Shown in pieces: positions 10,566 through 41,700 of a stretch of 64,000 nt of DNA. Each line of letters opens with the position of its first letter. The stretch's first letter is position 1. The DNA is taken from positions 20,661-84,660 of the forward strand of contig JAMQCK010000082.1 in the NCBI GenBank assembly GCA_024196135.1, given 5' to 3'. The position numbers and the translations under genes are program-made. Under the pieces are notes generated by a model. The model was not told the DNA's origin and made no database searches. It saw only the letters and a list, made by a program, of their open reading frames with translations. The DNA is from Pleurotus ostreatus/Saccharomyces cerevisiae fusant (taxonomy: Eukaryota > Opisthokonta).

Positions 10566-11400
10566 CTACAAGATGGCGTGTTTGAATATGCTCGTGAGGC
10601 GCTTTGGAAGTCGGTCGCGCGAAGGATTACCGCTTCCATCGCGCTCAGCGGGGCTTCGTCCTTCGTTCTGCCCAGCGCACCTCCCTCGCCTCCTTCGAAG
10701 TTCTTGCCACTCGTTGCTCAAGCGTACTTCGGACATCTGCTTCAACCGAAGGCAGAACCGCCTACGCAAGCGTTGATTCTCCGTCACCTTCAGTAGTTCA
10801 ATTCGCCACCGTCTGCATCAAGGCTTGTCAGGGAATCATCTGCATAGCCGCCTTCATCGTTCTGCTAATGTGCCCCAATTTCCTACTCACATATTCCAAT
10901 CCTTCTCATTTATCATTTCTTCTCACCTGTGCCATAGCACAATTGAATCGCCGCCGTACTCACTCATTCTCGTCTCCCTACACTCATCCGTCTACTTTAT
11001 TTTTTGTGCCCCGATTTTCTGCATTTAGCCTGAGGATTGTCATCTACTAGTAGTCTACCCGAAGTTAGGCAGTCGACCTACTCTGTACATATGCTCTCGG
11101 TCTCATTCTCAATGAACCAGTCACTCCTTTGTATTTATGCATGAATGCTCGCGCGGCGCGAGAGAATCGCAACATGGGGAGAGTGCGTGATGCGTGACAT
11201 TATCATTCACGTGCGTGTGGAACCCGGATAATCTGTGGCGCACCCCATGTCGCGACCTCTGTCGATGAGCCACGGCGCGCCAGCGCGGAAAATGTAGCCA
11301 GCGACATGAGAATTCCTCAACATTAAGGGGTATACACGATCTCATAATGCAGGAGGCGCTGACCGTAGCCCCAGCACCGCCTCATGCTAGGCCATACCGT
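10566..11400. other. 3' flank of KGxRPA gene copy 1, no gene
   Basis: This is AT-richer sequence with short frames only. It includes the likely terminator region of the preceding gene and the edge of the repeat array. No CAATG-periodic modules are visible before about 11.4 kb. Confidence 0.5.
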
Positions 11401-12234
11401 TCGTGCTTAGGTTGACCTCGCCGTCGTGTTCGTACCAGGCCAGCTGCGCGTACTACGCTGCAGCCAAGTGCTACGCAATATGAACGAAGTCGCTCCACTG
11501 GATATGGTCACTGACTCTTGACAGAGGTTTGGATCCGAGTCCTTCGACGACGCGCCACCGCCCTTGCACCTCGGGTAGCTTCCATTGTCCTCAGCATGCA
11601 CAGCGCAATGACTCGAACAATGCTGAGCTCGGCACCGAGACTTCTGGTGAAGTTTGAGCGGAGTTCGAAAGACGACACACATAAGCGGTGCGTGCTCGGG
11701 ATTTGATGGGCACGCCCTCTTGTCTCTTACCCTCATCTGCGCCACCACCACCCTGACCTTTCCCTCTTCCAGCCTCGACATACCGGTCTCGTCACGCGCA
11801 CCGATGATTCGACGACTTGAAGCGCCGTCAACGCACTCGCGGGCTAGCCCAATGCGACGACGAGGGGTGCGCTCAATGGTCCGTGGTTCCACATTCCTTC
11901 GGGCTCTCCGGGCTGACCGTCGACCTTAGTTCTCGTCAAGAACCAGCTTTCAAAGCCTGCGCAGCTCAGGAGCGCCAATGCTCGCGCGAGTGTACCCAAT
12001 GCCACAGCGGATGGGCAGCTCATTGGTGCGCCGTGCGAATGATCAGCGTGCTCACGCTCCTCAGCCCCACGACGCCTCGCAGGTGCATTTTTATCACGCA
12101 ATCTCGTGCTCGTCTCATACTGCGATGCCTCCCACAGCCCGAAGGTACGCTACTCGATCGCTCGACGTGTTCGCGTCACTGACTTTGTTTTCCCCAGCTC
12201 AACATCCAGCCACTTGGCCAGCACTTACCGACGC

Positions 12235-12355
12235 TACGCAAGCGCGTCAATGCCGGTGCCGTGCAAGAGCATCTATGCCGATGCCATCCAAGAACATCGA
12301 TGTCCATGCCACGCAAGAGCATCAATGCCGATGCCGCGCAAGAGCATCAATGCAC
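12235..12355 (+). repeat. 25-nt tandem repeat cluster
   Basis: About five copies of ATGCCGATGCCACGCAAGAG followed by CATCA. Because 25 is not divisible by three, the reading frame rotates each copy and all three translations stay open (RASMPMPRKSI, NADATQEHQC, RCHARASM). The same element recurs in nearly every unit and is the probable seed of the longer modules. Confidence 0.75.
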
Positions 12356-12824
12356 TCGCGACAAGGACCTCTTCCCCCACGAGCGGGCCCAATGGCGCGG
12401 TGATAGGGTCGTTGAAGGGTGCGCATATTTCGTGTGTTCGTAGACTCGTCACTGACGGCGCTCGTCAGATCTCTCAGGCATCGCACTTTGAGCTTGAAGA
12501 GCCCGGTGCAACGAGTCCAAATGGTCGCCGCAGTCGTCCAAGCCGCCAGGTGGCAATGTCGAAATGAAAGCTCGCTCGTCCTTATCAAGGATAGACATGT
12601 GCGTACGCGTGGAAGCTCTACTCCGCGCGGACTAATGCACCTCTAGGGCTCTGTCCAATGTACTCATTCTCGACTACGATAATTTTATCCTCGACTGCGA
12701 CATTTCCATTATGGGCTGCGACGCTTTCAGCCTCGGAAGCGATCGTCAAGGACAGCGATCATAAGGACGAGAGGCGGGGTAGAAGATCGAGCTCTAAGGA
12801 CCGACGTCGCCCAATTGCACTCGT

Positions 12825-13005
12825 CCCGCGCGGCGACGCAATGCATTTCCTCCGCGCCGGGCGCAATGACTCGGGCGCGGCGACGCCTAATGAATCTCCA
12901 GCGCAGTGGCGCAATAGCTTTCTTCAGCGCGGTTTCGCAATGCGCTTCGCGCAGCGGCGCAATGACCCTGCCGGCGATGCAATGAGGTCGGCGTGCCAAT
13001 GAGGC
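12825..13005 (+). repeat. GCGCGGCG-CAATG repeat block
   Basis: A run of about 20-30-nt elements of the form GCGCGGCGACGCAATG plus a variable spacer (TTTCCTC, ACTCGG). Equivalent blocks sit in the same place in other units, always downstream of the intron-like GTGCGT/CTGAC/CAG segment. Confidence 0.65.
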
Positions 13006-13958
13006 CGGAAGCCAACATTCTCTGCATCGACGAAATCCGCCAATTCCTTCCCCAACGAAGGACTGCGCGCTCAAGTCGCAATATGCTGTAGCGCCCTGGC
13101 GCAATGTCCGAGCCTCAAACTCAAGTCGCCGCCATAAGCTTCAGCTACTGCATCAAGCTCAAGCTGTCGCATCAGCTTGAGGGTCGTAGGTTCGCATACC
13201 TATCATCTTCCAGTTGTCGCCTGTGCAGTAACGTCTTCTGCAGAGCGGTAGATGGATGCCTCCCGACTCCGCCTAACGACTTCACATCGTCCTCAGTATG
13301 CCTCTGCTCCGCCGCTCGTAGGCTGACAATTCCCTTCGAATAATGTTACTCACGTGCTTCGCCTCAGGGTCTCCGTCATACCTGGATACATCAGTAGACC
13401 ATCGCTCTGATGCTACCACACACCGCCGCCTCGGCGGCCGGGCTCCACTCTCGCTTCGGCAGTGGACACTCGGTCCCTTCGTGATCTTCTTCTATTCTTC
13501 CTGCAGTATCTGAATTTCCGACAGGCTAACTACTCCTGCGCTGGCTGCGCTTCTGAAGGAAAGTTCGTGGATGGAGGAAGGGAAGGTCTGTCGATGAACG
13601 AGGAAGCGGTCTGATGGTGGATTAGGAAGCGGACTGGCTGGCTTGAGTGGGCGTCATGCGTGCATGGTGTCAGATTTATTTCTATGTTTTCCGTCGGCGC
13701 TGTGTGTAGCAGGCTTATAAATTCGATGGGTCTATCTATGGGTGGACGTGGAACTGGAAGAACGACGTGCGTGTTAAGTTGAAGTTGCCGATCTGCGGCG
13801 AGGCAGACGGATTACCCAGTGGCCCTAATCAAAACGCCTCGGCATCATGTTCGATATATTTATTTCTGTTGGTAACCCGCAGCTAGCAACACCACCCGAG
13901 CCAGCTGCTACGCAATGTGCGCAGTGCGGATCTCGGAATCGAACAATGAGCTTGGGCT

Positions 13959-16570
13959 GGTAACGTGACCGCCATGCGCAGCGGAGTTTGAAAAGCGACA
14001 CACATCAGCCTCGCGTGTCGACGATTTGATGGGCGTTCTCTTCTGTCTCTTACCCTCATCTCCGCCACCCACATTCCCCTTTGCACTGACCTCGACAGTC
14101 TGCCCTCGAATCCGCCAACCTGCACCCAACCACGCCAGTCTGTTCTTTATAGCGATATCTCGACGTCGATGGCTCGCAAGCGCCGTCAATGTTCTCTCGG
14201 GCTCGCCCAATGCCACGACGAGAGGGCAACCCAATGGTACGCCGCTACTCATGTAGCGTGACGTTTTCTCGTCGCTGACCTCATCTGTCAGATATCGCGG
14301 ACATCCCCAAGCTCACAGCGGCTCGCAAGTGCTGTCGAAATCGCCCGAGGTAGCCCAATGTTTCTGTGGCCAGGCTCCTCAATGGTGCGCTACTCGACTT
14401 CTAGCATACGCGTTCTCATTAGCTGACCTCGGCACTACTAATCTAATCAAATCGTCTGCGCTAGGGATCCTCGAGACTTTCGCGCCAAACTTCAGTCCTC
14501 GGCGAGGACTGTACTCGAGCTGCAGCCCTCGATGTGTCGCAAGTGCATCAATGCTCTACCGAGTCAGCCCAATGGTGCTGCGAATGGGTAGCTCAATGGT
14601 GCGTCCGCGATCGCTCAGCGTATCTGCGTCGCTGATCCTCATCGGCAGACACTCGACATCGTCTACTCGCCCCACGGTGCTCCGCAAGTGCACCAATGCC
14701 CCCGAGAGCTCGCCCAATGCCGCGGAAATCGGGCCGCTCAATGGTGCGTCACCATCGGTATCCCCTTTTCCTGTTGCTGATCATGAGCCCCAGATTCTCT
14801 CGATGTCGTCTAATCAAACCCCACGATGCATCGCAAGCGCATCAATGTATCGCGGACCCGCCCAGTGCCACAGTGACCAGGACAGCCGAGTGGTACGCCA
14901 CTCGACTCCCGAAAGTGTTCGCGCCTCTGACTTTGTTTGCCATCTCTCAGAATCAAGCTCTTCGACCTGCACTTACCGAAGTCACGCGAGAACATCAATA
15001 CGATGCCACGTAAGAGCAACAATGTCGACGCTATGCAAGAGCGTCAATGCCGATGCCGCCCCAAAGTATCAATACCTCCGCGACAAGATCATCATCGCCC
15101 CCGCGAGCTTACCCAATGCCGCGAAGACAGGGTCGCTCAATGGTTCGTGGGCACCTTTTTTCCCAAGCTCGCCACTGACCGGCTTCGTCAGATTTCTCCG
15201 GCATCGCATCTCGGCCAGTCTAGCGCCTCAAGCGACAGAAGAGCGTGACGCCTTAAGTACAAGCCGGCAAGTTGCAATGAGCTTTGTCCATGAACATCAG
15301 GCGGCCTGCGTAGCGGGAGGAAAGTTTTCTCGCTCCCATGAAGGGTAGGCAGGTGCGTTCGCGCGATGAATTTCCTACCACTCGGACTAACGCTGCTTCA
15401 GGGTGCTGCTCAATGCCATCGTACTCAGTACCGATGTATTCAGCCTCGACTTTGACGTTTCCAGCCTCGACCGCGACCGTCAAGGACCTCGACTTCGATC
15501 CTCAAGAGCAGCGGAAAGAGGTAGAAGATCAGGCCTTGAGGACTAATGCCGCTCAAATATCTTTCGCTCGCGTGGCGACGCAGTGATATCCTCCCCGCGC
15601 GGCGTCGCAATGTTCTCATCCAGCACGGCGATGCAATGAGGCTGACCGGTCATTATGAGGTCGGCAGGCCAACGATCTCCTTCGTCCCTTAGCTGTGAAG
15701 CGGCTATCCTACGCACTAGGACTTGCGCTCAAGTCGCAATGTGTATACGTCAAGGTCAGGTCGCCCCGTCAACCTCTAGCCCTCGCTTCAAGCTCAGGCC
15801 ATCGCGTCGAACCCAAGCCATTGCGTCGGCACGTTGAAGGTGTGTTCGTGGATTCTTCGACGATCACTCGTGAATTTACGCCGTCTTCAGCACTGTATGA
15901 GACGGATCGCTCAAGGATGCCCCCGGGTTCTCCTTGAACGCTCCCTAGCATATACAGCGCCTTCACTTCGTCTTCGGTATGCACCCGGTCCGCCGTTCGT
16001 GGACTGACAGTCCTCTTCTCAGTATATCCCCTGCAAGCTCGCCTTTCTGTGTGCCCTCATATCCGAACGTCCCGGTCGCTTCGGTGGCTTGCCATACAGG
16101 CACCTCGTGACCGGACCCTTCGACGGTGGCGGTTGTTATTTCCTTCGCGATCTCCTTTCACTCTATCAAACCCTTCGACAGGTTCACTTTTCCTGCGCTG
16201 GGTTCGCGTCTACAGGGCAGTTCGTAGATGATGGGAGAGGTGTTGGGAGAGCTGAGGAGAGACGATGCATGTTTGGAGTCGGATGGGTGACTCGTATTGT
16301 GCGCTGTGTGTTTTGTATAGCAGACTTTCGCATCCTATGGGTTTATCTATGGGTGACCTCGGGACTTGAATCGTGACGTGCGGATTGAATTGAGCTTGTC
16401 GATCGGTGGCGGCGCAGACGGAGTACTCGATGGCCACAATGACAAGGCCTCAGCATCAGGACAGTTATCTATGTCTCGCCTTGATACCTGTGAGTCGTCA
16501 TGCTCCTCCACCGCCGAGCGATTTGCGCAGGGGACTACACAGTGTAGACCTCGAACAACGAGTCTGGTCA
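13959..16570 (+). repeat. Array unit U2, nine intron-like segments
   Basis: This is the best-preserved unit for splice grammar. Intron-like segments occur at 14237-14291, 14385-14464, 14599-14648, 14744-14793, 14893-14950, 15143-15191, 15353-15401, 15841-15891 and 15977-16022. Each has a GT(G/A)CG, GTTCG, GTGTG or GTATG donor, most have a CTGA/CTAA-type branch point, and all have an AG acceptor. Exon-like lengths are 93, 134, 95, 99, 192, 161, 439 and 85 nt, which are not consistently multiples of three. The frames I followed from exon 1 all stop at or before the third junction. A 339-codon open frame across 14329-15348 ignores these splice sites and is probably accidental. Confidence 0.75.
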
Positions 16571-19057
16571 GGTAACGTGACTGCCATGCGCAGCGGAGTT
16601 TGAAAAGCGACATACAAAAGCGGCGCGTGCTTGCGAATTGATGGGCATTCTTTTCTGTCTCTTACCCTCATCTCCGCCACCCACATTCCCCTCTTCCGAT
16701 CACGATGCACCGACCGCGACATCCCGCACTCAACACCGACGCGTCCGCCTCGATGGCTTGCAAGCGTCGTCAATATACTCGATGGCAGGCAAGTGCCGTC
16801 AATGTTTTCGCGGGACAGCCCAATGCCACGACGATCGGGTAGCCCAATGGTGCGCCACTCGGGCGTTCCGGCATGTCTCCGTTGCTGAACTTGACGGTCA
16901 GATAGCTTCGACATCCTCAAGCGTACAGCGACTCGCAAGTGCCGTCCACATCTCCCGAGGTAGCCTAATGCCACTGCATTCGGGCTCCCCAATGGTGCGT
17001 CACGCGACTATCATGTATGTGCTCTCGCTGCTTACCTCAGCGCTAGAATCACTCAAGCTTCGCCAAGTATCTACTCAAGTCTTCCGCGCCCGCTTCTCGC
17101 CTAAAGTCTTCGGCGAGTGTATACTCAAGCCCTCAATGCGTCGCAAGTACATCAATATTCTCCTGAGTTCGCCTGATATCGCAGAGACTGGGCGGCTCAA
17201 TGGTGCGCCGCGCGATTGTTGTGCGAGTTCCTTTCCCTGACCTTCATCTGCAGAACCCCTCGACGTCGTCTCCTCATGCCCCCGATGGCTTGCAAGCGCA
17301 TCGATGTACGGGCGCGCTCAATGGTCCGGCGACCGAGCGTCCCAATGGTGTGTCTTTGCCTATTCCTCCATGTCCTCCCCGCTCACCTTCGGCTGCAGTT
17401 TCCCACCCTAAGACTGCACAAGAGCGTCAATGGCGATGCCACGCAAGAGCTATTGTCGACGCTATGCAAGAGCGCCAATGTCGACGCTGCACAAGCACGT
17501 CAATACCAATGCCGCAAGAGCATCGATAACAATCTCCGTGACAAGGACATTAATGCGCCTCGCGAGCTTGCCCAATGCCGCGCAGACCGGGTCGCTGTAT
17601 GGTGCGTGAACTCCATCAGTATTTTCTGTGCTCATCGCTGACCGCCTTCGTCAGAATTCCCGAAAATAGCTTCCCAAGCCGACGCTTCACCTCGAACAAC
17701 CTGGCGTGTCCCGAATGGCCTGTCGCATCAAGGTAATGGCCTGACGTCTCGAGCGCTCGAGGAGCCCTGACCCTCAAGCGAGTGAAGATTTCGAATTCTC
17801 GAGCGCCAGCCATCAAGCCGCAATGTCATCCGTGCCGTCAAGTGGCAATCGCATACCTGTCGTCAAGTGGCAATGTTTACTCGACTTGGACTGTATGAGC
17901 AAGAAGCGGGGAAGGAGATCAAGGAGAGACGCCACCCAATTATATTTCTTCCGCGCGGTGCCGCAATGACTTCCTCTGGCGTAGTGGCGCAACCACTCTC
18001 GCGCGGCGACGCAACCAGGTCTGCGTGCCAATGAGGTCGTCGAACAAATGAGGTCGGCGGGCCAATGCTATCCTTCGTCAACAAACTTCGACAATGTCTA
18101 TCCCGACTACAAGGTCACGAATTGCAGTAGCGCCTAAATCGCAATGTTCTAGCTCAATTCGAAATTTGGTATACCTCAAGCTCAACTTGTCGCGGGCTTC
18201 CCAAGTCATCGCTTCAAGCCCGGGTCGCTGCGTCAAACTCAAGTCATCACGACGCGCCAGATTGCGGGAAGAGGACAGTAGGTAGGTGCGTGCACCGTAG
18301 ACTTCTTAGTTGTCGCTTGCGCGCAAACGTCTGCAGGATTATCGTAGCCGACAGATCGTGTGTGATGGCTCTCGACAACCTCGTACCCTTATCGTCTTGG
18401 GCGCTTCTGCGCGACCCCGCGCGTTGCCTTCACCCTGACTTTGGTATGCCCTCGGTCCGCCGCTCGTAGTCTGACAATTTCTTCTCAGAACATTTCCTGC
18501 GAGCTCGCCGTTGAGAGCGCCCTCGTGCCTTGACACTGCAATGCGCAAGTAGACCGTCGCATCGGTCGCCGGACCTCACTTTCGCTGAAAAGGCAGTGGT
18601 CAATTTCACGCTTCGCGTTCTCCTTCTACTCTGCGTACATCATCTCATTCTTCGGCAGATCGATCATTCCCGCGCTGGCTGGACGCTTGGATCAAGGTTG
18701 GTGGATGGCCAGGAGGCGGTATGACGATGGATGAGAGAGCAGGCTGGATGGCTAAGGAAGCGATCGGGATGGCTGAGAGGGAATGAGGCTATGGTGTCTT
18801 GTGTATTCTCTGTTGCTCGTTGTGTGTTCTATACAGCAGACTTGCACAGTTTGCGGGGATCTATGCGTGGATTCTGGACCGGAAGTTTAAAGTGTGTTGA
18901 GTTGAAGTTACCCACCTGCCGATGCGTAGACGGAGTACTAGAGATATCTGACATGATGCAGAGGCCTTCCTACCATGGCCTCCGCCTCTGTTGAGCTCTC
19001 GCGGCTGGGCATGCTCCTCTAGCCGCAGCCCTGAGGTCGGACAACGAGCGTAGGGCA
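16571..19057 (+). repeat. Array unit U3
   Basis: The head GGTAACGTGACTGCCATGCG starts at 16571. Module donors of the form CAATG-GTGCG recur about every 140-210 nt. The segment about 17216-17880 is almost identical to 22037-22700 in U5, so U3 and U5 are much closer to each other than to the units beside them. I did not find the GTGCGT/CTGAC/CAG segment that precedes the GCGCGGCG block in most units. Confidence 0.75.
17216..17880 (+). repeat. Near-identical block shared with 22037-22700
   Basis: The block runs from TGTGCGAGTTCC through two exon-like modules, the 25-nt repeat cluster and the SHARLFEVKRRLGK-type reverse frame. The copy in U5 differs by scattered single bases only. This marks a recent two-unit duplication inside the left arm. 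Confidence 0.8.
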
Positions 19058-21400
19058 GTAACGTGACCGCCATGCGTGCCACTGATGGCGGAGCGGAGTT
19101 TGAATGAGCAACATACATAAGCGGCGCGATTTGATGGGCGTCCTCTCTTCACCCCTACTTTCATCCCGTCGCCCCATCTGCCCCTTCATCGACATCGACA
19201 ACTAGCACTCGACAACGGTATCTCGATCTCGATGGCTTACAATTGTCCATATCGTCGATGGCTAGCAAGTGCCGTCAATGTTCCGGTCGAGCCCAATGCC
19301 ACGACGAGCGGGCAGCCCAATGGTACGCCACTCGGAGGTCGTGGCATGCTTATGTAGCTCACCCCTTCCGCCAGATACTGTCGACGCTCCAATTGCCCTC
19401 AAGCCTTCAGTAACCCGCAAGCGCCGTCTATATCTCCCGGCACCGAGGTAGCCCAATGCCCTCGCGACCGGGCTCCTCAACGGTGCGTCGCGCGACTATC
19501 ATACGCGCTCGCATTGCTGACCTTGGTGCTGGTATCACCAAGTCTTACTCAAGTCTTCGGCGAGCAAGCTCCTCAAACTTCCGATGCTACGCAAGAGCAT
19601 CAAGTCATCGCGAGCTCCCCCAATGCCACAACGTACGGGCAGCTCAATGGTGAGTCACAGCCAGCAGCGCTTGCGCTTGTCGCTGACCTTTGTCGCTAGA
19701 TCCCCTCGACATCGTATGTTTAACCTCAAGAACCCCTCAGCATCGTCTAACAACCTCCCGATGCCACACAAGTGCGTCAATGTAATCGCGCTCTCGAGTT
19801 TGCACAATGCGGCGATGACCCGGGAGCCCGATGCCCCGGCGACCGGGCAGTCCAATGATACGTCATTCCCCTTGTATTCTCTGCGCTGAGCGCTGACCTT
19901 CGGTTCAGATCTCATTGACGTCTAGCTGATCGGACCACACACACCGACGCCGCGCAAGAGCGTCAATGCGGATGCTACACCAATGCCGGTGTTTCTCAAG
20001 AGCATCAATGTCGATGCTGTGCAAAAGCAAGACAACGGGGATGCTTCAAAGAGCGTCAATGCCGATGCCACGCAAGTGCATCAATGTCCTCACGAGCTCG
20101 CCCAATGCCGCGGAGGGTCGCTCAATCGTGCGTGTACATCGTTTCTCGATCAGTTTACCACTGACCGCCTTCGCCAGATCTCTCGGCAAGCGCCTATCAA
20201 TAAGGCCGATCCCTAAAGCGACCGAAGAGCACGGCACCTTGATCGTTCGAGCCGTCTAGTAGCAATGTACAAAGAAAAGCTCACTCGTTCACATTTATGG
20301 CAGTCAGGTTCGTCCTCACGATCGACTGCCTACCGCTCGGACTGACGCCGCTTCAGGGATCTCCTTGATTTTTTCGTTCTCGAGTTCGACAGCGACCGGA
20401 AAGGACAGCGAACCTAAGGCGAGTGGCAGGGCAGAAGATCAAGGACCGACGCCACCCAATAATTTTTCTCTGCGCGGGGCGCAATGACCTTCAGCGCAAC
20501 CTCGCAACGATTTCTTCCGGCGCGGCGACGCAATGGCTTTCTCTGGCACTACGTCGCAATGTGGTCGGCAGGCCAATAGTCTCTTCCATCCTCAAGCCAT
20601 TTCCTGCCAAAAAGGGTTGCAGTAGCGCTCAAGTCGCAATGATCTAGTACGCCCAATCTGCGATGCGCTATACCTCAGACTCAAGTCGCTGCGTCAACCT
20701 CAAGTATTGAGACACCGCGTCACGCTCGAGCTGTTGCGTCAAGCTCTGAACGTTGGAAGGTAGTAGGTGCGTGTACCGCTTGATTAGTTGTCGCCTGCCC
20801 GCTAACCTCCTCTTAGAGCGGTGGATCGATGCGTCCTGACCGCACTCAACGGCTTCATATCGTCGTCGGCAAGCCTCCCGCTCCGCCGCTCGTATACTGA
20901 TACTTCTTCGCAGAATTGAGCTCGCGATGTTCCGGTCGAGCGTCGCCTCAGTGACCGGACCTCGCCCCGGTTCGACTGCGAGGATCGTTTTATCCCTTTG
21001 CAATTTCCTTCTATTTTGTCTATGTCATCTAATTCTCCAGTAGGTCAAGTATTGGCGCGCTGGCTGGACGTATGGAATTGGTGGATAGACAAGGGAGCAG
21101 TGTGAATGGCATGATGTGTGTTTGGGATGTTGGATGTGTTCTGCGTTTTGTATTGCGTGTAGCAGATTCTCACAGTCGATGGGCTTATCTATGGGTGAAC
21201 TCGGAAATCAAGCGTGACGTGCGTGCTGAGTTGAAGCTGCCAACCTGCGGTGGCGTAGACTGAGTACTCAGCAGTCATCATGCAAAGGTCTCTGACTCAC
21301 GACAAATGCAGTGTAAACTGTCTCCTTTGAGCTTCTGCGACTGGCCATACTCCTCCAGCCAGCTGCGCGGATATCGGAGTCGAACAACGAGCCTGGGAAG
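19058..21400 (+). repeat. Array unit U4
   Basis: The head is GTAACGTGACCGCCATGCGT followed by a short CCACTGATGGC insertion before GGAGCGGAGTTTGAA. Similar CTGATGGC insertions recur in the right-arm units M3 and M5. Repeats of the 25-nt element lie at about 19945-20090. The segment near 20310-20357 has a GTTCGT donor, CTGAC and a CTTCAG acceptor. The flank before the head resembles that of U6. Confidence 0.72.
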
Positions 21401-28700: not shown

Positions 28701-31153
28701 TTGCATGCCACCTCAGAGAGATCGGGGAAAGGCCTCTTCTCGGTCCAATCTGGCTACTTGTTCCCAGTACGGCGCCGCGAATTCCAATGCACAACACCAG
28801 GATATATACACCCACAGTATATGCAACGCATCCGGCACTTCACACGCATCCGATACCATAGATGCATCCGGTCATATACCGGCGCCATAACACGTCTCCA
28901 ACACCATTTCCACGACGGATATAACACTGCGCATGCGCCCTTCCCCACCACCCATCCCATTGCCCCTTCAGCTCTCCGCGTCACGCCCCTCCATCCCCTG
29001 CATGTCGCCCCTTGAGTCAAAAGACAGTATGAGAGAATGTCTGAGGAAAGCATCAGCTATGCCAGTACAGACGACCTGCTGAAGAAGATTGCGAGGAAAA
29101 ATCTACTACTCATCGCCACCGATGCTAGAGTGGGACCTGACCCTTGAAGCGACGCTCTCCACGATCCGGTCATGAGAAGGCGAGATCGCAAGGAGTATCC
29201 TAGGAATAGCACTGTCAGCCTACGAGCGGCGGAGCGGGAGGCATACCGTGGACGATGTGAAGCCGTTGTGTGGGGTCGGGTGGCATAGCTCTACTGCTTA
29301 AAATGAATAAACGCGACAATTCGACGTTGATACATCGTGATGGCTGGAGCTTGAAGCGACGGCTTGAGCCTGACGCGACGACTTGAGCTTGAGGTATAAC
29401 GTATTGCGGATTGGGCGCGCTAGAACATTGCGAGTGGGGCGCTCCTAAATTCCTTCGGTTGGATAGCGATTGCCGTATGCCGTCTATGAAGGTATCATTG
29501 GCCCGCCGACCTCATTGCGTCGCCGCGGTCGAGTCATTGCGCCACTGAGCTGAAGAAAGTCATTGCGTCGCCGCGCGTGGGGATTTCATTGCGATGCCGC
29601 TCGAAGAATGGCATTGGACGGTGTCCGTTTTCGACCGGTGACCTTCTGCACTGCCTCTTGCCCTTATGGTCGGCGCCCTTGACGGTCTCTGTCGATGTCC
29701 TTGAAAATCGATGTCGGGGATAAAAGGTCGAAGTCGAATACAAGACAGCGATCTCGAGGACAAATATGTCGCATTCGAGGATGGAAACGTCAATGTTGAG
29801 GATACAGGATGTCGAAGTCGAGAAACAGAGCATTGGGCAGAGCCCTTGAATGGCGTCAGTCCGGGCGGTAGTAAAGTCATCGCGCGCACGCACCTGCCTA
29901 CCCTCCGTAAGAGCGAGAAAGCTTTCCTTTGAGCCTTGCCACTTGACGGCTCGGACGATCGAGGCGCCGCGTTGTTGGAGTTGAAGTGTCGGACTGGTTG
30001 AGACGCGATGACAGAGATCTAACGAAGGCGGTTAGTGGTCAGCGCAGGAGATCACGGTGACGACGCACCATTGAGCTAACCGATCTTCGCGACATCGGGC
30101 GAGCTCGTGGGGGACCGTCGGTGTTCTCGCTGCGGTGGCATTGATGCTCTACGCGGCGTTGGGCCAGCTCGCGGGCGCTATGTCCCCGCCGGAGGAGGCA
30201 TTCGTGCTCTTGCACGGCGTCGGTATTGATGCTCTTGAGAGGCATCCACATTGATGCTCTTGCATAGCATCGGAGTTAACGATCTGGCTCGAGGCTGGCG
30301 AGACTGGACGATGTCAGGCTTCAAGGCAGGACGTCAGCGCGAGGGAAACGCTGAAGAAAGTTAGAGCGACGTACCATCAGGTCTGCCCGCTTGTTGTGCA
30401 TTGGGAATTCCGATCGCAGAGGCATTGACCAACGCCGCAATGCATTGATGCACTTGCGAAGCATCCTGAGGTCATGTAGACGATGGCGATTAATCTGGTG
30501 ACGATCGTGAGTGAAGCGAACTCGCACGAAAATCTCATGGCACACCATTTTACCGCCCATCTGCAGTGGCATTGGGCCGGTTCGAGAGAACATTGATGCA
30601 CTTGTGCCGCACCCTGAGCTTGAAGAGAGTACTTGCAGACGACCTGAAGACATCTAGCGCGGACTAATTGAGAACTATAGCCGAGGTCAGAAATACGAAC
30701 GCATATGTAAGTCAGGTGGCGCACCATTGAGGAGCCCAGACTTCGCGGCATTGGGCTACCTCGGGGAATATTATTGACACTTGCGAGCCACTGAAGGCTT
30801 GGAGTGAATGACACATCGACTAAATCTGTCATTTGAAGTCAGCGACAAACGTACGCCGCTACTCAGGTGGCGGCGCACCATTGGGCTACCCGCTCATCGT
30901 GGCATTGGGCTCGCCCGAGGAGAACATTGACGGCACTTGCAAGCCATCGGGAACGCTTGCAAGTCATCGAGGCAGAGGCTTCGGTGTCGGAATCGGACTG
31001 TCGAGGTCGAGGGTATACTGTCGTAGTTAGTGAAGGGGAATGTGGGTGGCGGGATGAGGGTAAGAGCCAAGAGAGGACACCCATCAAATCGCAAGCACGC
31101 GCTGCTTATGTATGTCCCTTTTGAAACTCCGCTGCGCATGGCAGTCACGTTAC
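28700..31153 (-). repeat. Array unit M1 (innermost right)
   Basis: The head is at 31153 reading leftward, and the tail extends to about 28700 (CACGCATCCGATACC-like words shared with other tails). A perfect intron-like segment lies at 29893-29845: GTGCGTGCG donor, GACTGAC branch, TTCAAG acceptor. The 25-nt repeats are at about 30180-30270. The GCGCGGCG-CAATG block is at about 29510-29600. Confidence 0.72.
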
Positions 31154-34005
31154 CTGCCCAGGCTGGTTGTTCGAGACTCTGACTTACATCGTGTAGTACA
31201 CTGCGCAAATCGCTTGGCAGTGGAGGAGCACAACAAGCCACAAATATTGAAGCGAGACATAGTGGCCATAGTGATAAGGCATTGGCATCAAGACAGATAT
31301 CTGAGTACTCCGTCCAGGCTGCCGCCGGTGGGAGGCTTCATCTTAACACAGCACGCACGTCACGCTTCCAGTTCCAGTGTACCCATGCATATCCCCATAG
31401 CCCGCGAAAGTCTGCTGAACACAACGCACAACACAGAAAATATTGTACATCACGCCCGCTCAGCCATCCAGACCTGTCCTGCCTCCATCCCGAATGCTCC
31501 CTCATCCACTCAAAAACTGTCCTTCAGACGCCTGAGCAGCGTAGGAGTAGCCAATCTGTTGGCGAGTTAGGTAACGTAAGCGGAGTCGAAGAAGATTGCA
31601 AAGGGAAAAAGCGATCACCGCAGTCGAAGCGGCGCAGGGTCCGGCCTCTGAGGCGACTGGCGCACGACTAGAAAATCGAAGCGAGGGTGTAGCCGAGGTG
31701 TCCAGGAATGAATGCGAAGCTCGAGGCGAAGCGCGCGAGGCAAAGACTGCGAAGAGAACTATCAGCCTGAGAGCGGCGGAGCGGGGGACTGACCGAGAAC
31801 GATGTGAAGCTGTTCAATTAGTTCGGCAGTCTCTGAAGAAGACGTTAGCGCGAACGAACGGTACACGCACCTACCATCCTCTACCAGCAAGCTGACGCGT
31901 CGTGATGACTCGAGCTTGAGGACCGCGGCGACTTGAGCTTGAGGTATAGCACATTGCGGATCGGGCGCGTTAGAATATTGCGACCTGCACGCTACTCATG
32001 TATTCGTCGAGATAGGGATTGTCGAGTTTCGTTCATGAGGAAATCATTGGCCCGCCGGCCACATTGGTCCGACGACCGCATTGGCACGCCGGCCCCATTG
32101 CGACATTGTCGCGCGAGAGAAATGCATTGCGCTGCCGCGCGGAGGAGGTTTATTGCGCCACCGATCCAGAGAAAGTCATTGCGATGTCGCGCAGGAAATC
32201 CATTGCGTCGCCGCGCGGGAGAGACATCATTGGGCGGTGCTGGTCCTTGATCTTCTGCGTAGGCCTCCTGTCTTGATGGTGTTGCCCTCAAAGATTGATT
32301 GTCGGGGTCCAAGGTCAAAGTCGAGAACGAGAGCAATGGGCAGCGCCCTAGAACGGCATCAGTCTAAGTAGAAGGAAAATCATCGTGCGGACGGACCTGC
32401 CTACTCTCCGTAGTAGCGAGGCAGCCTTCCTCTCGTTGCTCGGACCGCCTGATGCCCATGGACAGAGCTATTGCCTGTTGACGGCTCGGACTTGAGGCGA
32501 TTGTTTGGACCAGAGCCGCGGTGGCCTGGCCGATGCAGAGGCGATCCAGGGAGAGGATCTAATGAAGGCGGTCAGCGACGAGCCCAAGGACTAACAACGA
32601 TGTCCACGAACCATTGAGCTGTCCGGTCTGCGCACATTGGCGGCACGGTGGTAGGTCTCGCAATCCGAATTGATGCTCTGACGTGGCATCCGCATTGACA
32701 CTCTTGCGTAGCATCGGCATTGACGCTTTTGCATAACGTCGTATTGGTGATCTTGCGTGGCACCGACATTGACGCCCGTGGTATCGGTATGTGGTCCAGC
32801 AGCTGAAGTTCTCGGATGAAGGATCAAAATCAGTGACGTGAGCACATTAAACGGTCGAGTCGCGTACCGTGCGGCGGCTCAATTGCCGTGGCATTGGGGG
32901 AACTCGTGCGATGTCGCAGTATTGCGCGAGCCCGAGAGCGCATTGTATTGATGCACTTGCGAAGCATCAGAAGATTTTCAGGCGATGCCGAGGGGCTCAA
33001 GAGCTTGGGTATACGTTGAGGAGACCTGATTACCATGATCGACGACAAGGCGAAGCGATGCCGGCGGGGACGCTCCATCGAGCTGTCCGGTCTCCGCAAC
33101 ATCGGGAGAGCTCATGGGTACCTTCAACTCTCTTACGCGGACATTGATGCTCTTGCGTGGCATCGGCATTGACGCTCTTGCGCGCCGCCGGGTTGGGGCG
33201 ACTAGGCGTTAACGAGATCTAAGGCCGAAGGTCAGCGCCGAAAATACGGATGGATAAGGGATGGCGTACCGTCAGGCTGCCCGGCCAATGTGACATTGAG
33301 TGAGGTCCAGATTCATTGATGCATTTGCGAAGCACGGGGAGATTGCTGAACGACGTAGAGGGGATTTGTCTATGAAGGTCAGAGTCGGAAACACACATGA
33401 CGATGGCGGAGCGCACCATCGAGCTGCCATCCGCCGTGTCAGAGAAATTATTGATGCACTTGCGACGCATCGAGAGCTCGAGCCGGGTACCTTTTGAAGA
33501 CTCAAGGACATCGAGCACTGGTGGCCGGAGGAAGTCCGGCGAGGACGACTTGGGGAGACTATCGCAAAGGTCAGCGACGAGAATGCATATGAAAGTCGCG
33601 TGGCGCACCATTGAGGAGCCCGGGCACAGTCACAATTGGACTACCTCGGGAGGATTTATCGGCACGAGCGAGCCACCGAAGGCTTCAGGATGTGTTGAAC
33701 GTCGAGGATACCTGGAGTCCAAAGTCAGCAACAAAGGCATGCTTCGCCACCTGAGTCGCGCACCATTGGGCTTCCCGCGCGTCGTGGCATTGGGCTCGCC
33801 CGAGAAAGCATTGCCGGCGTTTGCAAGCCATCGAGGCAGAGGAGTCGGTGGCCAGCGCGGACTGTCGAGGTCAGAGAGTCAGTGCAGGGGGGTGTGGGTG
33901 GCGAGATGAGGGTAAGAGTTAAAAATGGACGCCCATCAAATCGCAAGCACGCGGCGCTTATGTATGTCGCTTTTGAAACTCCGCTGCGCATGGCAGTCAC
34001 GTTAC
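31154..34005 (-). repeat. Array unit M2
   Basis: The head is at 34005 reading leftward. It has GGAGTTTCAAAAGCGACAT, where left-arm units have TTTGAAAAG. The 25-nt repeats are at about 32670-32790 and 33130-33190. The intron-like segment at about 32395-32347 has a GTCCGT donor, GACTGATG and TTCTAG. The GCGCGGCG-CAATG block is at about 32100-32235. Confidence 0.72.
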
Positions 34006-36665
34006 CGGCCTAGGCTCGTCGTTCGACATGCGCTGCATACGTTGCGAGGCAACTGGCTGGGTGAACATCTCCAGCTGCATGTAATCAACAGACACTAAGC
34101 ATCTAACATGATGCTGAGGTCTTAGAATTATGGCCACTGAATTTTTGTCTACATCGCCGCAGGCGAGTCTCAACAAGTTCAGCTCAACACGCAAGTCACG
34201 CTTCGAGTTCCGGGTTCACCCATGAATAAAACCATCGCCTGTAAAAATCCGCTATACAGGACACACAGCGCAAAGCATAGGTAATATATCCAGCCCATCC
34301 TCATGCCATCCAGACCATTCCCTCGTCCATCCACAACTTCCCTTTAGGCGAACAATCGGCCAAGAGTAGTTAATCTATTGGAAAGTTAGATAGTTTTCCC
34401 GGAGTAAAAGGAGATTGAAAAATGACCGCCGCCGTTGAAGCGACCGAAGAGTGCGGTCCAGTCACCGACGCGACGGTATACGCAAGGCGTCTGCGTAGAA
34501 TATTCTAGGAAGAGAACTGTCAGCCTGCGAGTGACGGAGGGGGAGGCATACCGAGGACGATGTAAAGGCGTTGAATGGGGTCGGGACGCATCGATCTACC
34601 GCTCTGAAGCGGAGGTTAGCACGCAGGCGAAACCAGATAAGATGGTACACGTACCTACTATCCTCGAACGTCGAGCTGACGCGATGGCTTGAGCTTGACG
34701 CAACAGCTTGAGCCTGGGGTATAACGCGCTGCGGATTTTGTGCGCTGAAACATTGCGACTTGGGCGCTATCGAAGCTCTTCGTTGGATTGGGGTTGTCGA
34801 AGATCGTTGACGAAGAAAACCATTGGCTGGCTGACCGCATTGCGTGACCACGCGAGAAAACTATTGCGTCGACGTACAAGAGAATTCATTGGCCCATCGC
34901 CTCATTGTAATGCCCCGCCGGAGGTGATTATTGCGGGGCCGAGCGAGAGTTCATTGCGCCGCCGCGCTGGGAGCTCCATTTTATCGACGCGACGGTGAAG
35001 GACATTGCGTCGCCGCGCGGGGGAATGAGGATAGGGCGGCGTCGGTCTTGAACAGTTGAGGTCGTGACGGGGTCCTTCGAGGCCGATAACGTCGAAGGCG
35101 AGGCCGAAGCCGAGCACAAAAACGTCGAAGTCGAGAAGGAGAGCATTGGGCAAAGCCCTAGAGCAGCATCAGTCTGTGTGGTAGGGCATAATCAAACAGA
35201 CGCACCTGTATACCCCTGGCGGGATGAGGGAGCATTCCTCTAAACATTGCCACTTGACGGCTCGGACAATCGAGGCACCGGGTTGTTGTAATGCGCCCGA
35301 CTGGGCGAGAGGCAATTCTCGAAAGATCTGATAAAGGTAATCAGCGACTAGCATAGAAGAGACTAACGTCGATAACGCACTATTAATCGACCCGATCTAC
35401 GCGGGATCGGGCTAGCGCGCGGGGGGCATTCACGTCCTCGTCTCGGAGGTATTGACGCTCTTGCGTAGCATCGGTATTGATGTTCTTGCGTGGCATCGTC
35501 TGGACGCTCTTGCGCAGCGCCGGCGTTGATACTCTTGCATAGAATCGTCTTCACGCTCTTGCATAGCGCCGTATTGATGCTCTTGCGTGGCATCCGAAAG
35601 TGCAGGTCAACGAGCTGAAGAGAATGAAGTCAGTGGTGCGAGCACGTTGAGCGAATGTGTGGCGTACCATTACGCGGATTCTTCGCCGCGCCATTGGGCG
35701 GTCCCGCCGGACATTGCTGTACTTGCGAGGCACCGGGAGGTTGCTAGGCGGTGTCGGGGGGCTCGTAAGTTTCAGCATACGACGTCGAGGGGTTCTGTCG
35801 ATGATGGTCAGCGACGAGGACACGCGATGCCGACGGTAACGCACCATTGAGCTGCCCGGTCTCCGCGGCAACATTGGGCAAGCTCACGGGGACCTCAACG
35901 CTCTTCCGCGGACATTGATGCTTTTGCGTAGCATCGGCATTGATGCGAGTGACCTCGATATTGACGCTCCCGCGCGGCGGTGGGGTTGGGAGGCTGCATG
36001 TTGTCGAATTCTAAATCCGAGGGTCAGCGGAGAGGACGGGGAATATATATAATGGCGTACCATTGGGCTGTCCTGTCCCCGCAACCTTGGGCGAGCCCGC
36101 AATAGATTGATGCGCTTGCGAGGCATCGAGGGTATGAGACGACGTCGAGGAGTCTGTTGACCATGTTCAGCACTGAGAAAGTGTATAAGTATCAAGTGGC
36201 GCACCATTGAGGAGCCCGAACGCAGTAGCATTGGGCTACCTCGAGGAGGTTGGTCGGCATTTGCGAGCCACTGGACGCGCAATGGTGGTGTACACGTTGA
36301 AGACATCTGGTGAACATGATTAGTGAGGAACGCATATTACGCCGCAATAGTGGCGTACCATTGGACTGCCCGCTCGTCGTAACATTGGGCTCGCCCGAGA
36401 AAACATTGACGGCGCTTGCAAGCCGTCGAGAATATCGAGGACGTTTGCAAGCCTTTGAGGTGGAGGCGTCGCTCTTGAACGCGGACTGTCGTAGTCGAAA
36501 GCATACTGTCATTGTCAGTGGTGGGGGGAACATGGGTGGCGGAATGACGGTCAGAGTCAAGAGAGGATGCCCATCAGATCACACGCGCGCGCCACTTGTA
36601 TATATTCAAACTCCGCTGCCATCAGTCACCAAAAGGGGGAAACACCCGCATGGCTGTCACGTTAC
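34006..36665 (-). repeat. Array unit M3
   Basis: The head is at 36665 and carries an inserted segment ending CTGATGGC before AGCGGAGTTTGAA, as in U4 and M5. The 25-nt repeats are at about 35455-35600. The intron-like segment at about 35207-35161 has GTGCGT, GACTGATG and CTCTAG. Confidence 0.72.
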
Positions 36666-39114
36666 CGGCCTAGGCTCTTTGTTTCGACTGGGAGATCGGC
36701 GCTGCGCGCATTGCGTGGGGGATGTCCATTGACAGTCGCCAATTGATAGTAGCAAGCTAAGTCGAGAGCCTCGAGATAAGCTTGCAGGAGATGGCTTAGG
36801 AGACTGTTCAGGCAGAGATTCTGAGCGCCCTGGTGAAAGGATGACCATTATGATCACCTAGTCCACGCCGCCGCAGATCGATAAATTCAGCTCAACAAGC
36901 CAGTCACTCTTCGAGTCCCAAATATACCCCTGGACAATTCCAATGGCCGGAGAAGTCTGAAATACACAGCACGGCACTATACACGCATCCAACACCATAC
37001 GAGCATCCTACCCCTTCGGCCCTCCGCGCATCGTCTCCCCATCCACTTGAAACTGCCTTTTAGAGGTCCAACCAACGCAGGAATGTATGATCTGTTGATA
37101 AGTCAGTTAATGCAAGCAGAGTAGAAGAAGACCGCGAAGGAGAAAGATGACCACGGCCATCGAAGCGCGAGTGAGGTCCAATTACTGAGGCGACGGTCGA
37201 CCGGAGCATCTAGGCGATGGTCTACTGAGGTGTCCAGGTATGGGAGCGCACCCAGATGCGAAGCCCGCGAGCTTTACTCTGGAGAAAATTGTCAGCCTAC
37301 AAGGTGCCGTGCGAGAGCATACCAGAGCCAAGGTGAAGGTAATGGCGAGAGTCATCCGAACGCGATGAGTGAGGTAGGGAGCAATTGCACGTATTCCGCT
37401 GCCTTTCAAAAAGGTTAGACCGCGAACAGCTGCGAGGTACATACGCCGTGCATGCGTCTTTGATCCTGAAGCTGACGTGTCGACTTGAACTTGACGCGGC
37501 AACTTGAGCTTGAGGTATAGTGCATTGCGAACTGGGTGCGCTAGAACATTGCAATTTGAGCTCTACTGAAGTCCTTCGTCGAAGATATTCGACAATCCCT
37601 ACCCCGGCGAAGGAAACATTGGCACGCCGACCTCATTGCATCGCCGACCTTATTGCATCGCCGCCCGAGCCATTGCGCCGCTGCGCGAAGTGCATTGCGC
37701 AACCGCGCTGCAGAAAGCCATTGCGTCGCCTCGGGAGAGTCATTGCGTCATCGCGCGCGAGATATCTCATTGCGTCTTCGCGCCCGCGTCATTGCGCCCC
37801 GCGCGGAGATAGATGATTGGGCGGCGTCAGTCCTTGATCTTCTGCCCCGCCACTCTCCCTTATAGTCCATGTTCTTGACAATCGATGTCGAGGATAGAAG
37901 CCGGTATTGAGGACAAAAACCGTTCAAGTTGAGAGCGAAAGAGCAGCGCCTGTGAGCAAAAACTTAGAATGACATTAGTCCAAGCGGTAGGGATTTTATC
38001 GCGCGGACGCACCTCTCTGCATGACCGAACTTTCCTGCGAGCATTGCCATTGGATGACTGGGGCTTTAGGCGTCCGATCCGACTCTTCGAGAGGCGGTGG
38101 TACCGGAGACCTAACGAAGGCGATAAGTGGCGAACTTGTGGAAACATGTTGTGCACGCACCATCGAGCGACCGGTCTTTCTGGCATTGGGCGAGCTCGCG
38201 AGCATCGACATTGACGCTCTTGCATAGCCTCGACATTGGTGCTTTTGGGTGGCATCAGCGTGGATGCCCGTGGCATCGGTAAGTGCGTCGAGGGGCTGGA
38301 TGTGTAGCTGAGGCGAACAAAGTCAGTGACACGTGCATATTGAGCGGTCGAGTCACGTACCTTTAGGCTGCATGGTCTCCGCAACAATGAGCGAGCCCAA
38401 GAGCGCGCGACATTGATGCACTTGCGCAGCATCGGGGCGTCAAGCATACGACATCGAGAGGACCTGTCGATTACGATTAGCAACGAGAGCAAGCAAGTTT
38501 GGCGGTGACGCACTATTGAGCTGACCGTTTGCTGTGGCATTGGTCCGACTCGGTAAGAGATCGATGCTCTTGTGTAGCATCAGCATTGACGCTCTTGCGC
38601 GGCGTCGGGCTGGGTGGATGGGACGTCGACGAGTTCTGATATCAATAGTCAGAGAAATAAAATCAGACGATGATCGCGGAATGTACCACTGAGGAGCCCG
38701 GACGCAGTGAGATTGGGCTACCTCGGGAGATGTCGTTGGGGCTTGCGAGCCACTAAGATCTCGGGGGCAAGTTGAGCGTCGAGGACATCTGGCGGCCAAA
38801 TTCAACGACGAACGCATGCCGCGCTACACAAGTGGCGGCGCACCATTGGGATACCCGATCGTCGTGGCATTGGGCTCGCCCGAGAAAGCATTGACGGCAC
38901 TTGCAAGCCGTCGAGAATATTGACGACGTTTGCAAGCCATCGAGGCAGAGGCGTCGGTGGCCAGCGCGGACTGTCGATGTCAAGGAGTCAGTGAAGGGGG
39001 TGGTGGGTGGCGGGATGAGGGTAAGAGTCAAGAATGGACGCCCATCAAATTGCAAGCACGCGCTGCTTATGTATGTCGCTTTTGAAACTCCGCTACGCAT
39101 GGCAGTCACGTTAC
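36666..39114 (-). repeat. Array unit M4
   Basis: The head is at 39114 and matches M2 (GGAGTTTCAAAAGCGACAT). The intron-like segment at about 38013-37965 has GTGCGTCC, GGACTAATG and TTCTAAG. The GCGCGGCG-like CAATG block is at about 37620-37830 and is unusually long. Confidence 0.72.
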
Positions 39115-41700
39115 CAGCCTAAACTCGTCGTTCGACATCTGCGCTGCGTATGTTGTGTGGCGGCTGGCCGGAGGAGTATGGCCAATCGCAGAAATGCAAA
39201 GGAGACAGCGTACCTGTAATGATCCAAAGGCCTTTATGTTATGGTCGCTGATTACTCAGTCTACGCGGCCGCAGGTCGGCGACTTTAGAGCTCAACTCGC
39301 ACGTCACACCTCAAATTCCAAGTTCACCGGTGATTCGACTCAGAGACCGTAAACGTATGCTACACCTTCACAACACAGGAAATACATCCGACACCATACA
39401 TGCATCATGCTCGCTCGGCCATTCAGATCGCCCCCTCAGCCATCTACGGACTTCCCTCCAGACGCCCGAGCAGCGCAGGTCAGATGATCTGTTGAGGGGT
39501 CAGATAGAGCATGCGGGGTAGAAGGAGATCGCGAAGTGGGGCCCGGTCACCAAAGCGATGGTCTACCCGAGATAGGGCGCACCCGAAGGAATTCTCGGAG
39601 TGGATGTTCTATGAAGGGAATTGTCAGCCTATGAGAGGTGGAGGGGGAGCCATACCGGAATCAAGGAGAAGCCGTTGGGTGGATTTGGGGCCCATTGCAC
39701 ACAGCATGTCACTCTGAAGAAGCCGTCAGCGCGCAAGGGACGGTTGGGCGATTCACCTGGTCGATCGATAGCAGGTTGAAGGATATCACATTGCGCCTCG
39801 GGCGCTGCGGCAGTCCTTTGTCGGGATAGAAATTGACCGTTTTCGTCGATGCAGGAGATCATTGGCCGGCCGCCCTTATTGCGCCGCCGCGCTGGAGGGA
39901 AGTCACTGCGAAGTCGCACGAGTGGATCATTGCGCCACCGCGCTAGATAAAGTCATTGAGCTGCCGCTCGCAGAAAGCCATTGGGCCACCGCGCGGTCAA
40001 ATCCACTGCGCCGCCGCGCCCGAGTTTCTGGGCCGCCGCGCGGGAGGGATATGATTGGGCGTCCCTAATGATTGATCGCCTCGACGATCGCTGTCGATGC
40101 TGGTAACGTCGAGTTTGAGGATCAACATGTCGAAGTCGAGAACAGAAGCATTGGGCAGGACCCTAGAGCGGCGTCAGTCCATGCGGTAGGGGGATAATTC
40201 GATCGAGCCAACACACCTGTTTACCCTTGATGGAGACAAGCAAGCTTCCCTTCGAACATTGCCACTCGATGACTTGAAAATTGAGATGACCGTTTCGCCT
40301 TGAGGCGCCGCGTGCGATGGACGAGCAATCTACGATGTCAGTCAGCGGCGCACTTGTGGAAGTACGTTGTCCACGCACCATTGAGCGACCCGGTCTCCGC
40401 GGTATTGGGCGGGCTCGCGGGGTCTGCCCTCAAGCGGGCTTTCCTTGAAACATTGCCACTTGACGGCTCGAACCTCGAGGCGTCGATCGGTGTGCGAAAT
40501 GCCTAAGAAGGCTGTCAGTGATGAGCGCAGAGAAAATCAAGAGTGTCTACGCACCTTTGAGCGACCCGGTCTTCGCGACATTGGGCGAGTTCGCGAGGTC
40601 GGTTATGCTCTTGAGGCGAAGGTGTTGATGCTCCTGAGCAGCATCGGCATTAACGCTCTGGTCCGGCCATTGACGCTCTTGCATGGCATCGCATTGATGC
40701 TCTTGCGCGGCATCGCCATCAAAGCTCGCAACATCGGTATGTGCAAGCCGAGTGGCTGGATGCTGGACTGAAGAAAAAAGAGTCAGTGGCGCGAGCACGC
40801 TGACGGTTCAGCGACGTACCATTGGTCCGCACGAGTCGCTGCGCCATTGTACGGGTCCGCGATACATTGATGCACTTGCGGGGCATCGGGGGCTTGCATA
40901 GACGACGTCGAGTCGATCTATTTGCGATCGTCAGTGACGAGGGCTCGCGCGACGACCGCGTGACGCACCATTGAGATGCCCATCTGCAGTGGCATTGGGC
41001 TGGCTCGGGAAGGTATTGATGCACTTGCGACGCATCGCGGGCTTGAGTCGAATACTTGCCGTGGACCTGAGAAAACTGTCGTCAAGGTCAGCAGTGAGAG
41101 CGCGGATACCGGCCGAGCAGCGCACCATTAAGGAGCCCCGATGCCATAGCATTGGGCTACCTCGGGAGATATCGACGGTTCTTCAGAGCCACTGGGAGCT
41201 TGAGGGAGCCTGAGCTTCAAAGATATCTTGCATACAATGTCAGCAACAGAAGCATGCCACAGAACACGACTAGCGTACCATTGGGGTACCCGCTCAGCGT
41301 GGCATTGGGTCCGCCCGCAAAAACATTGACAGCGCTTGTAAGCTGTCCAAGTAGAGGCATTGAGGGCAAAAGCGAGCTGTCGGGATTGAGAGCCAGCTGC
41401 GGGGGTCAGTAAAGAGGGAAGTCCGGGTGGTGGGGTGAGGTTGAGAGACAAGAAAGAACGCCCATCAAATCGCGCACATGTCCGCTTATGTGGATTTTCA
41501 AACTCCGCTGCGCCATCAGTGGTCAAAGGGGAAGCGCTCGCATGGCGGTCACGTTACCGGCCTGGGCTCGTTGTTCGACATCTGCGCTACGCACATTGCG
41601 CACCAGCTGACTGGATTGGAACGGCTGGCCTCATTCAATTGGAAGAATATGGCCAGCGGAGATTACTCAACAGGAACCGAGACATCAGACATGATACAAA
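39115..41700 (-). repeat. Array unit M5 (outermost right)
   Basis: The head is at 41557 with the CACTGATGGC insertion. Homology continues to about 41700, then stops. The 25-nt repeats are at about 40620-40735. The intron-like segment at about 40216-40155 has GTGTGTTGG, GGACTGACG and CTCTAG. Confidence 0.7.

Follow-up and report, generated by a model that had tools for sequence, protein, structure and literature searches.

Xist with its A-repeats, the roX RNAs and NORAD are long RNAs in which structured or protein-binding elements recur; they are products of single or few genes. In H/ACA guide RNAs there are two hairpins with a short single-stranded box behind each (ANANNA behind the first, ACA behind the second). 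Reported here is an inverted array of eleven repeat units in a 64,000 nucleotide (nt) stretch of contig JAMQCK010000082.1 (assembly GCA_024196135.1, positions 20,661 to 84,660 of the forward strand), termed the window. Each unit is a string of modules of about 70 nt that consist of hairpin A, CAATG, hairpin B and a second CAATG. The module resembles an H/ACA RNA in having two hairpins that are each followed by a short box, but it is exonic and repeated, and CAATG rather than the H/ACA boxes is found in both places in an alignment of 51 modules. The array differs from Xist, roX and NORAD as well, in that there are tens of putative tandem genes and the module ends at a predicted splice donor.

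By working principle the nearest case appears to be meiRNA (sme2) of Schizosaccharomyces pombe, a non-coding RNA described as a decoy of Mmi1 (PMC4077057, PMC6789587). The likeness would be one of principle only, in that in each case a non-coding RNA of a fungus is proposed to gather an RNA-binding protein through many copies of a short motif, and the array RNA is not classed as a member of the meiRNA family. It differs in its CAAUG motifs beside covarying stems, its many predicted introns of about 50 nt and its tens of gene copies. A screen on Ascomycota genomes only yielded 17 conserved structural RNAs of fungi supported by covariation (PMC8216456), and covariation support is also found for the array RNA. 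The words "tandem", "exon" and "Schizophyllum" have zero occurrences in the main text of that paper, and its passages on these RNAs do not mention tandem arrays or spliced modules. In the passages returned by a literature search, PMC8216456 and PMC9187340 included, no description of such an RNA was recognised. The window shows no match at the gathering score to any of 4227 Rfam families, consistent with a preliminary description, made from the letters of the window alone, in which no named family with this structure was known.

It is fairly probable that the array represents an undescribed class of eukaryotic RNA gene in which one exon is one self-folding two-hairpin module with the donor right behind the hairpin, and in which a multi-site RNA results when splicing links the modules. 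Each nucleus of Schizophyllum commune, the likely source of the genome, would have its own set of tens of divergent copies in tandem and inverted arrays. The RNA architecture is what we regard as categorically new; this assessment covers the architecture, and the function is one that we infer.

A self-BLASTN of the window shows same-strand matches among units in 11.6–26.3 kb and opposite-strand matches to 28.8–41.6 kb. These off-diagonal matches confirm the inverted array of about eleven units given in the preliminary description, with six plus units facing five minus units over almost half of the window. Identity between matching units is about 63–87% (about 64–78% between facing units), and the best pair is 16294–17992 with 21136–22812 at 87%. 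By a profile of the eleven units the plus units extend from 11610 to 26312 and the minus units from 41586 down to 28822. The profile starts lie 19–31 base pairs (bp) from the six plus and five minus heads described before, an agreement that is partly by construction because the units were cut 30 bp ahead of those heads. For each of the two innermost units, the outer end was placed by hand. As cut, the units are 2103–2852 bp long, close to the 2.3–2.9 kb estimated earlier, and the unit profile and comparisons bear out a head, module series and tail in each. The 2.5 kb centre (26300–28800) has a genome-wide match only to itself. The array is situated well within the contig of 84,660 bases, and the right edge of the window is found again, with 95.7% identity over 1337 bases and the flanking genes adjoining, at the end of contig C1039. 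Thus at least that edge has been seen twice.

The module starts with a stem that has a GCAAG loop, followed by CAATG, a second stem with a loop that begins with AATG, a second CAATG and often GTRCGY. Nearly invariant blocks in the 51-module alignment are GCAAG, CAATG, GCCCAATG and GGG. The alignment took 51 of 60 candidate modules, from a candidate listing that omitted three loci (L015, L016, L023). The nine left out comprise three near-duplicates or close copies and six with a hairpin B of other form or spacing; leaving out these six means that the alignment favours the consensus. A covariance model built from it gives 68 matches in the window, none of them outside the array or against the unit orientation, with four to seven per unit, and 189 matches in 19 fetched loci of the genome, on a single strand per locus. 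CAATG in unit orientation is found 241 times, where the remainder of the window would predict 26. Averaged over the eleven units, the predicted RNA of one unit would carry six or so modules and roughly twenty CAAUG motifs, many of which adjoin a stem. A simple tandem repeat or satellite was considered and rejected, as the 25-nt repeats that Tandem Repeats Finder detects inside units belong to the larger modules; they also rotate the reading frame. Motif resemblance to U4, U6, 18S rRNA and tRNA was considered and dropped. In the second half of the units, e.g. 22760–22890, short GC-rich stems followed by CAATGA can be read by eye (types GCGCGGCGGCGCAATGA and GGCCGGCAGGCCAATGA), which suggests a second kind of module outside the reach of the model.

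The two-hairpin structure shows covariation. In the 51 modules, 88.6% of cells are paired, compared with 82.3% after shuffling and 26–50% when the structure is slid, and changes on both sides of a pair occur in 43 cells versus 15.5 in shuffles; none of 500 shuffles reaches the paired fraction or the both-side changes. With the 2298 column pairs ranked so as to allow for shared descent, the hairpin B pair 50–82 is first and the hairpin A pair 10–28 third. Pairs 11–27 and 52–80 rank 19 and 23, and the seven remaining structural pairs, which are less variable, between 75 and 1543. A set of 109 donor sequences places pair 6–37 first of 741, with 70 versus 30 for the next, and 8–35 eleventh; RNAalifold recovers both stems from this set. 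A further set, 49 donor-anchored 40-mers whose loci the model does not include, was read without alignment or row selection, and contains alleles of loci in the 51-module alignment. These show 78.3% pairing versus 74.6% shuffled and 31–48% slid, with 26 both-side changes versus 9.5, a number reached by none of 500 shuffles. When tetramers with at least 40 sites are ordered by the strength of the stem upstream, AATG is second in the window and first in other arrays.

The modules are also followed by predicted introns. A donor regular expression presupposes introns, and splicing was therefore tested from the module side. GT is found directly behind 50 of the 68 window modules (background 5.4% of sense positions), and the full pattern of about 50 nt, GT...CTNAY...YAG, i.e. 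donor, branch site and acceptor at fungal spacing, is found behind 38 (background 0.43% of sense positions, modules included, and 0.10% antisense). The term "spliced-looking" used for the units before is thus upheld, the pattern being far above background. Among 51 window modules not used for the model, GT follows 33 and the full intron pattern 21. A regular expression for donor, branch site and acceptor, applied to the window and 16 loci (L017, L022 and L027 left out), finds 115 donors, of which 95 are directly after AATG and 109 were kept in the 109-sequence set. The predicted introns are mostly about 50 nt long, and in most intron-bearing modules four bases separate the end of hairpin B from the donor. 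Covarying hairpin modules with CAATG, the donor-like GT behind most of them, the lack of a frame and a family on 15 contigs go beyond the preliminary description.

Two protein models that NCBI lists for other S. commune strains, EV715DRAFT_266605 (P0002) and EV714DRAFT_273494 (P0008), correspond to units of the array. A number of the joins in these models coincide with predicted borders directly after CAATG, joins that may stem from gene prediction alone. Over about 200 residues the models of the two strains are nearly identical, while their remaining parts differ. P0008 and a homologue of a flanking protein (P0005) come from contigs of equal length (254,104), which suggests the same locus in that strain. 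A 902-base record (P0001) runs through predicted introns; it is most simply read as genomic DNA and is therefore silent on splicing.

Divergence between alleles was compared in three pairs. It is 13.9–14.5% in the interior of introns, 6.5% at acceptors, 3.6% at donors (0 to 8.3% by pair) and 2.3% in the AATG before the donor, so that AATG and donors are four to six times less divergent than intron interiors. Intron definition used a single allele, and this choice alone can halve signal divergence, to about 7%; donors and AATG both lie below this value. Of 342 CAATG cases, 282 (82.5%) retain the motif, which places it ninth among 325 five-letter words; its permutations are retained at 64.7%. 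The antisense form CATTG is kept in 20 of 36 cases (55.6%), which indicates conservation on the sense strand. In this set each pair is read in both directions, and one paralogue pair (p3/p5) is included. Conservation and covariation together point to selection on what would be a spliced, structured, non-coding RNA, judged from sequence comparison.

There is about an even chance, in our estimate, that the array holds eleven copies of a frame-less gene, predicted to be transcribed and spliced to a long non-coding RNA of two-hairpin modules that likely serves an RNA-binding protein as a multivalent platform or decoy. Each unit would be transcribed from its head and the introns of about 50 nt removed, so that the modules are joined end to end. 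The CAAUG adjoining a stem would be the binding site for the protein, and tandem copies and extra modules would supply more of these sites. A short motif repeated beside short stems is the look expected of a multi-site protein-binding RNA.

A number of results weigh against this proposal. The modules as a whole are 7.9–8.6% divergent between alleles versus 8.8% for other array sequence; therefore it is not the modules as a whole that are extra-conserved, only AATG and the donors, and branch sites also diverge by 8.8%. The second-ranked column pair (52–71) lies outside the structure, most structural pairs are too invariant to rank high, and some of the double changes distinguish one module type from another and may each go back to one ancient event. 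The folding energy of single modules is mildly low (mean z −0.75, 19 of 51 below −1; the antisense modules give −0.33 and 12 of 51), and RNAalifold retains from the 51-module set the inner stem of B alone. One stem common to all AATG sites was sought and not found, and stems right before AATG are enriched only moderately (9% strong versus 2%). GT is absent directly behind 18 of the 68 window modules, and transcription and splicing of the units are predictions.

Some of these results would fit a selfish or passive structured array, whose copies stay transcribed and spliced, are so tolerated and serve no host function. It agrees with growth in tandem, strong divergence, copy numbers that vary from locus to locus, and modules that diverge between alleles like other array sequence. 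However, retention of AATG, donors and sense-strand CAATG together with compensating hairpin pairs is unexpected of neutral copies, and a search of ten proteins from the units, the centre and the edge of the array (a subset of the open reading frames) revealed no Pfam domain at E ≤ 0.01. This includes domains of transposable-element proteins, in line with the earlier remark that no transposon protein is present, and we consider this explanation unlikely. The close approach of hairpin B to the donor could mean that the hairpin serves splicing alone, by fixing the donor that follows or by keeping it exposed, with no other role for the exons. That is a decidedly doubtful explanation, since hairpin A and CAATG are found at a distance from donors as well, in the 25-nt exon repeats and in the modules that lack a GT, and CAATG is conserved throughout the units. 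The many hairpins and the two facing half-arrays call to mind a small-RNA precursor that feeds a Dicer pathway through its hairpins or its inverted layout. But the helices are short (the conserved helix B has eight interrupted pairs), no long near-perfect stem is found, and the facing units, about 64–78% alike, are therefore too different for long perfect duplexes, making a precursor of this kind very unlikely.

The dense occurrence of a short motif would also be seen if CAATG were read on duplex DNA and the introns were incidental. Such a DNA-level array of binding sites is highly improbable in view of the strand-specific enrichment and conservation, the covarying pairs and the donors at a fixed spot behind the module. 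We give equally little credence to a decaying protein-coding family with many small exons. It would explain the intron-exon layout and the fact that NCBI lists hypothetical proteins for two units in other strains, and between alleles (three pairs) the substitutions counted by position from the exon start are slightly unbalanced (40, 24, 26), from which no frame can be read. However, six units, spliced as predicted, have stops in every frame, and the equivalent exon differs in length modulo three between units. Module exons are equal in length between alleles in 15 of 25 cases, and 10 of 13 insertions or deletions in them are not multiples of three. Protein coding was rejected on these grounds; no reading frame conserved across the tandem copies was found in the spliced units and alleles. 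If the proposed non-coding RNA holds true, public annotation of S. commune lists at least two such RNAs as hypothetical proteins, namely the NCBI models named above. If transcribed and spliced as predicted, the array would be a natural many-copy experiment on co-evolving RNA structure, exon borders and repeated motifs. Covariation-supported structure in long non-coding RNAs is reportedly a contested subject, to go by the title of a 2017 article by Rivas et al.

The family extends beyond the window. A search of the genome (40.05 Mb, 1277 contigs) with the DNA of one unit shows it on 15 contigs, C35, C187, C352, C401, C599, C709, C814, C885, C907, C935, C976, C1039, C1055, C1079 and C1216, and two further units as queries add no contig. 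As the search scores the best candidates only, 15 is a lower bound. The pattern GCAAGNGCNNCAATG is found in 89 places, 76 of them on array contigs (at least two of these 76 outside arrays), as compared with three for the reversed pattern. Counting as a unit head each profile match that begins at profile position 75 or lower, there are 44 heads, 11 in the window and 33 in fetched stretches, alleles included. Several contigs are allelic to one another, namely C885 and C976 (87.4% identity over 8.5 kb), parts of C187 with C599 and C1055 (81–91%), and C1039 with the right edge of the window (the 95.7% match given above). On C187 (L019/L020) and C599 (L022/L023) the units point outward, with minus units at the left end and plus units about 20 kb to the right, while those of the window array point inward.

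The closest relatives of a flanking protein (45541–46329, in the open reading frame 45505–46329, plus strand) are five proteins with 59–91% identity, all from S. commune, and for this reason the genome is taken as likely S. commune. Schizophyllum commune belongs to the Agaricales, and the placement among Polyporales/Agaricales in the preliminary description fits it. Among predicted proteins, the only named matches to units are also from this species (the 7996 candidates sharing most words were scored). S. commune is described in a passage of PMC7403608 as having the highest known genetic polymorphism. Plasmid and phage searches with single units as queries gave no match. The pattern search of viral contigs hit seven contigs with one match each, judged to be chance because the matches are single. 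As to a possible link with telomeres, none of the TTAGGG matches listed is on an array contig.

Table. Array units, centre and predicted introns in the window. Modules are listed in the order of the unit; unit starts by the eleven-unit profile are the first position of plus units and the last position of minus units.
Feature	Position	Strand	Modules or remarks	Basis
Unit p1	11610..13921	+	11807-11878, 11954-12025, 12326-12394, 12925-13001	profile + module model
Unit p2	13933..16527	+	14164-14236, 14313-14384, 14527-14598, 14672-14743, 14821-14892, 15023-15142	profile + module model
Unit p3	16544..19030	+	16777-16849, 16923-16994, 17131-17202, 17280-17347, 17454-17505, 17533-17601	profile + module model
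Unit p4	19030..21366	+	19253-19322, 19405-19482, 19579-19649, 19756-19857, 19942-19985, 20060-20127	profile + module model
Unit p5	21374..23705	+	21603-21675, 21741-21812, 21949-22020, 22098-22165, 22249-22300, 22356-22421	profile + module model
Unit p6	23705..26312	+	23937-24008, 24090-24161, 24227-24296, 24424-24493, 24600-24676, 24779-24830, 24853-24943	profile + module model
Centre between half-arrays	26313..28821		5 open reading frames tested, no Pfam domain	
Unit m1	28822..31178	-	30879-30952, 30725-30796, 30546-30617, 30399-30469, 30224-30275, 30069-30123	profile + module model
Unit m2	31204..34031	-	33764-33836, 33609-33681, 33417-33475, 33270-33340, 33076-33168, 32892-32972, 32718-32768	profile + module model
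Unit m3	34037..36684	-	36359-36431, 36205-36276, 36061-36131, 35845-35939, 35668-35738, 35562-35598, 35427-35476	profile + module model
Unit m4	36706..39143	-	38844-38916, 38687-38758, 38514-38585, 38361-38437, 38161-38235, 37634-37736	profile + module model
Unit m5	39148..41586	-	41279-41351, 41126-41197, 40969-41040, 40820-40891, 40668-40718, 40555-40624, 40379-40471	profile + module model
Predicted intron, unit p2	14237..14291	+	55 nt, directly behind module 14164-14236	
Predicted intron, unit p2	14599..14648	+	50 nt, directly behind module 14527-14598	
Predicted intron, unit p2	14744..14793	+	50 nt, directly behind module 14672-14743	
Predicted intron, unit p2	14893..14950	+	58 nt, directly behind module 14821-14892	
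Predicted intron, unit p2	15353..15401	+	49 nt, second half of unit, after GGCAG not AATG	

Ten open reading frames that flank the array display no Pfam domain. Three frames that lie on both sides of the array are related, with about 25–33% identity, and belong to a family that lacks a Pfam domain (8410–9423 plus, 43640–44845 minus and 47399–48379 plus). The frames at 45505–46329 (plus) and 49293–50579 (minus) form another related pair with 35–37% identity and no Pfam domain. Those at 52595–53758 and 55431–56489, both on the minus strand, have a common C-terminal part with 78% identity over about 140 amino acids. An inverted repeat is found at 715–1308 and 7165–7668, its copies about 6 kb apart, with 68% DNA identity and up to 61% in the translated open reading frames.

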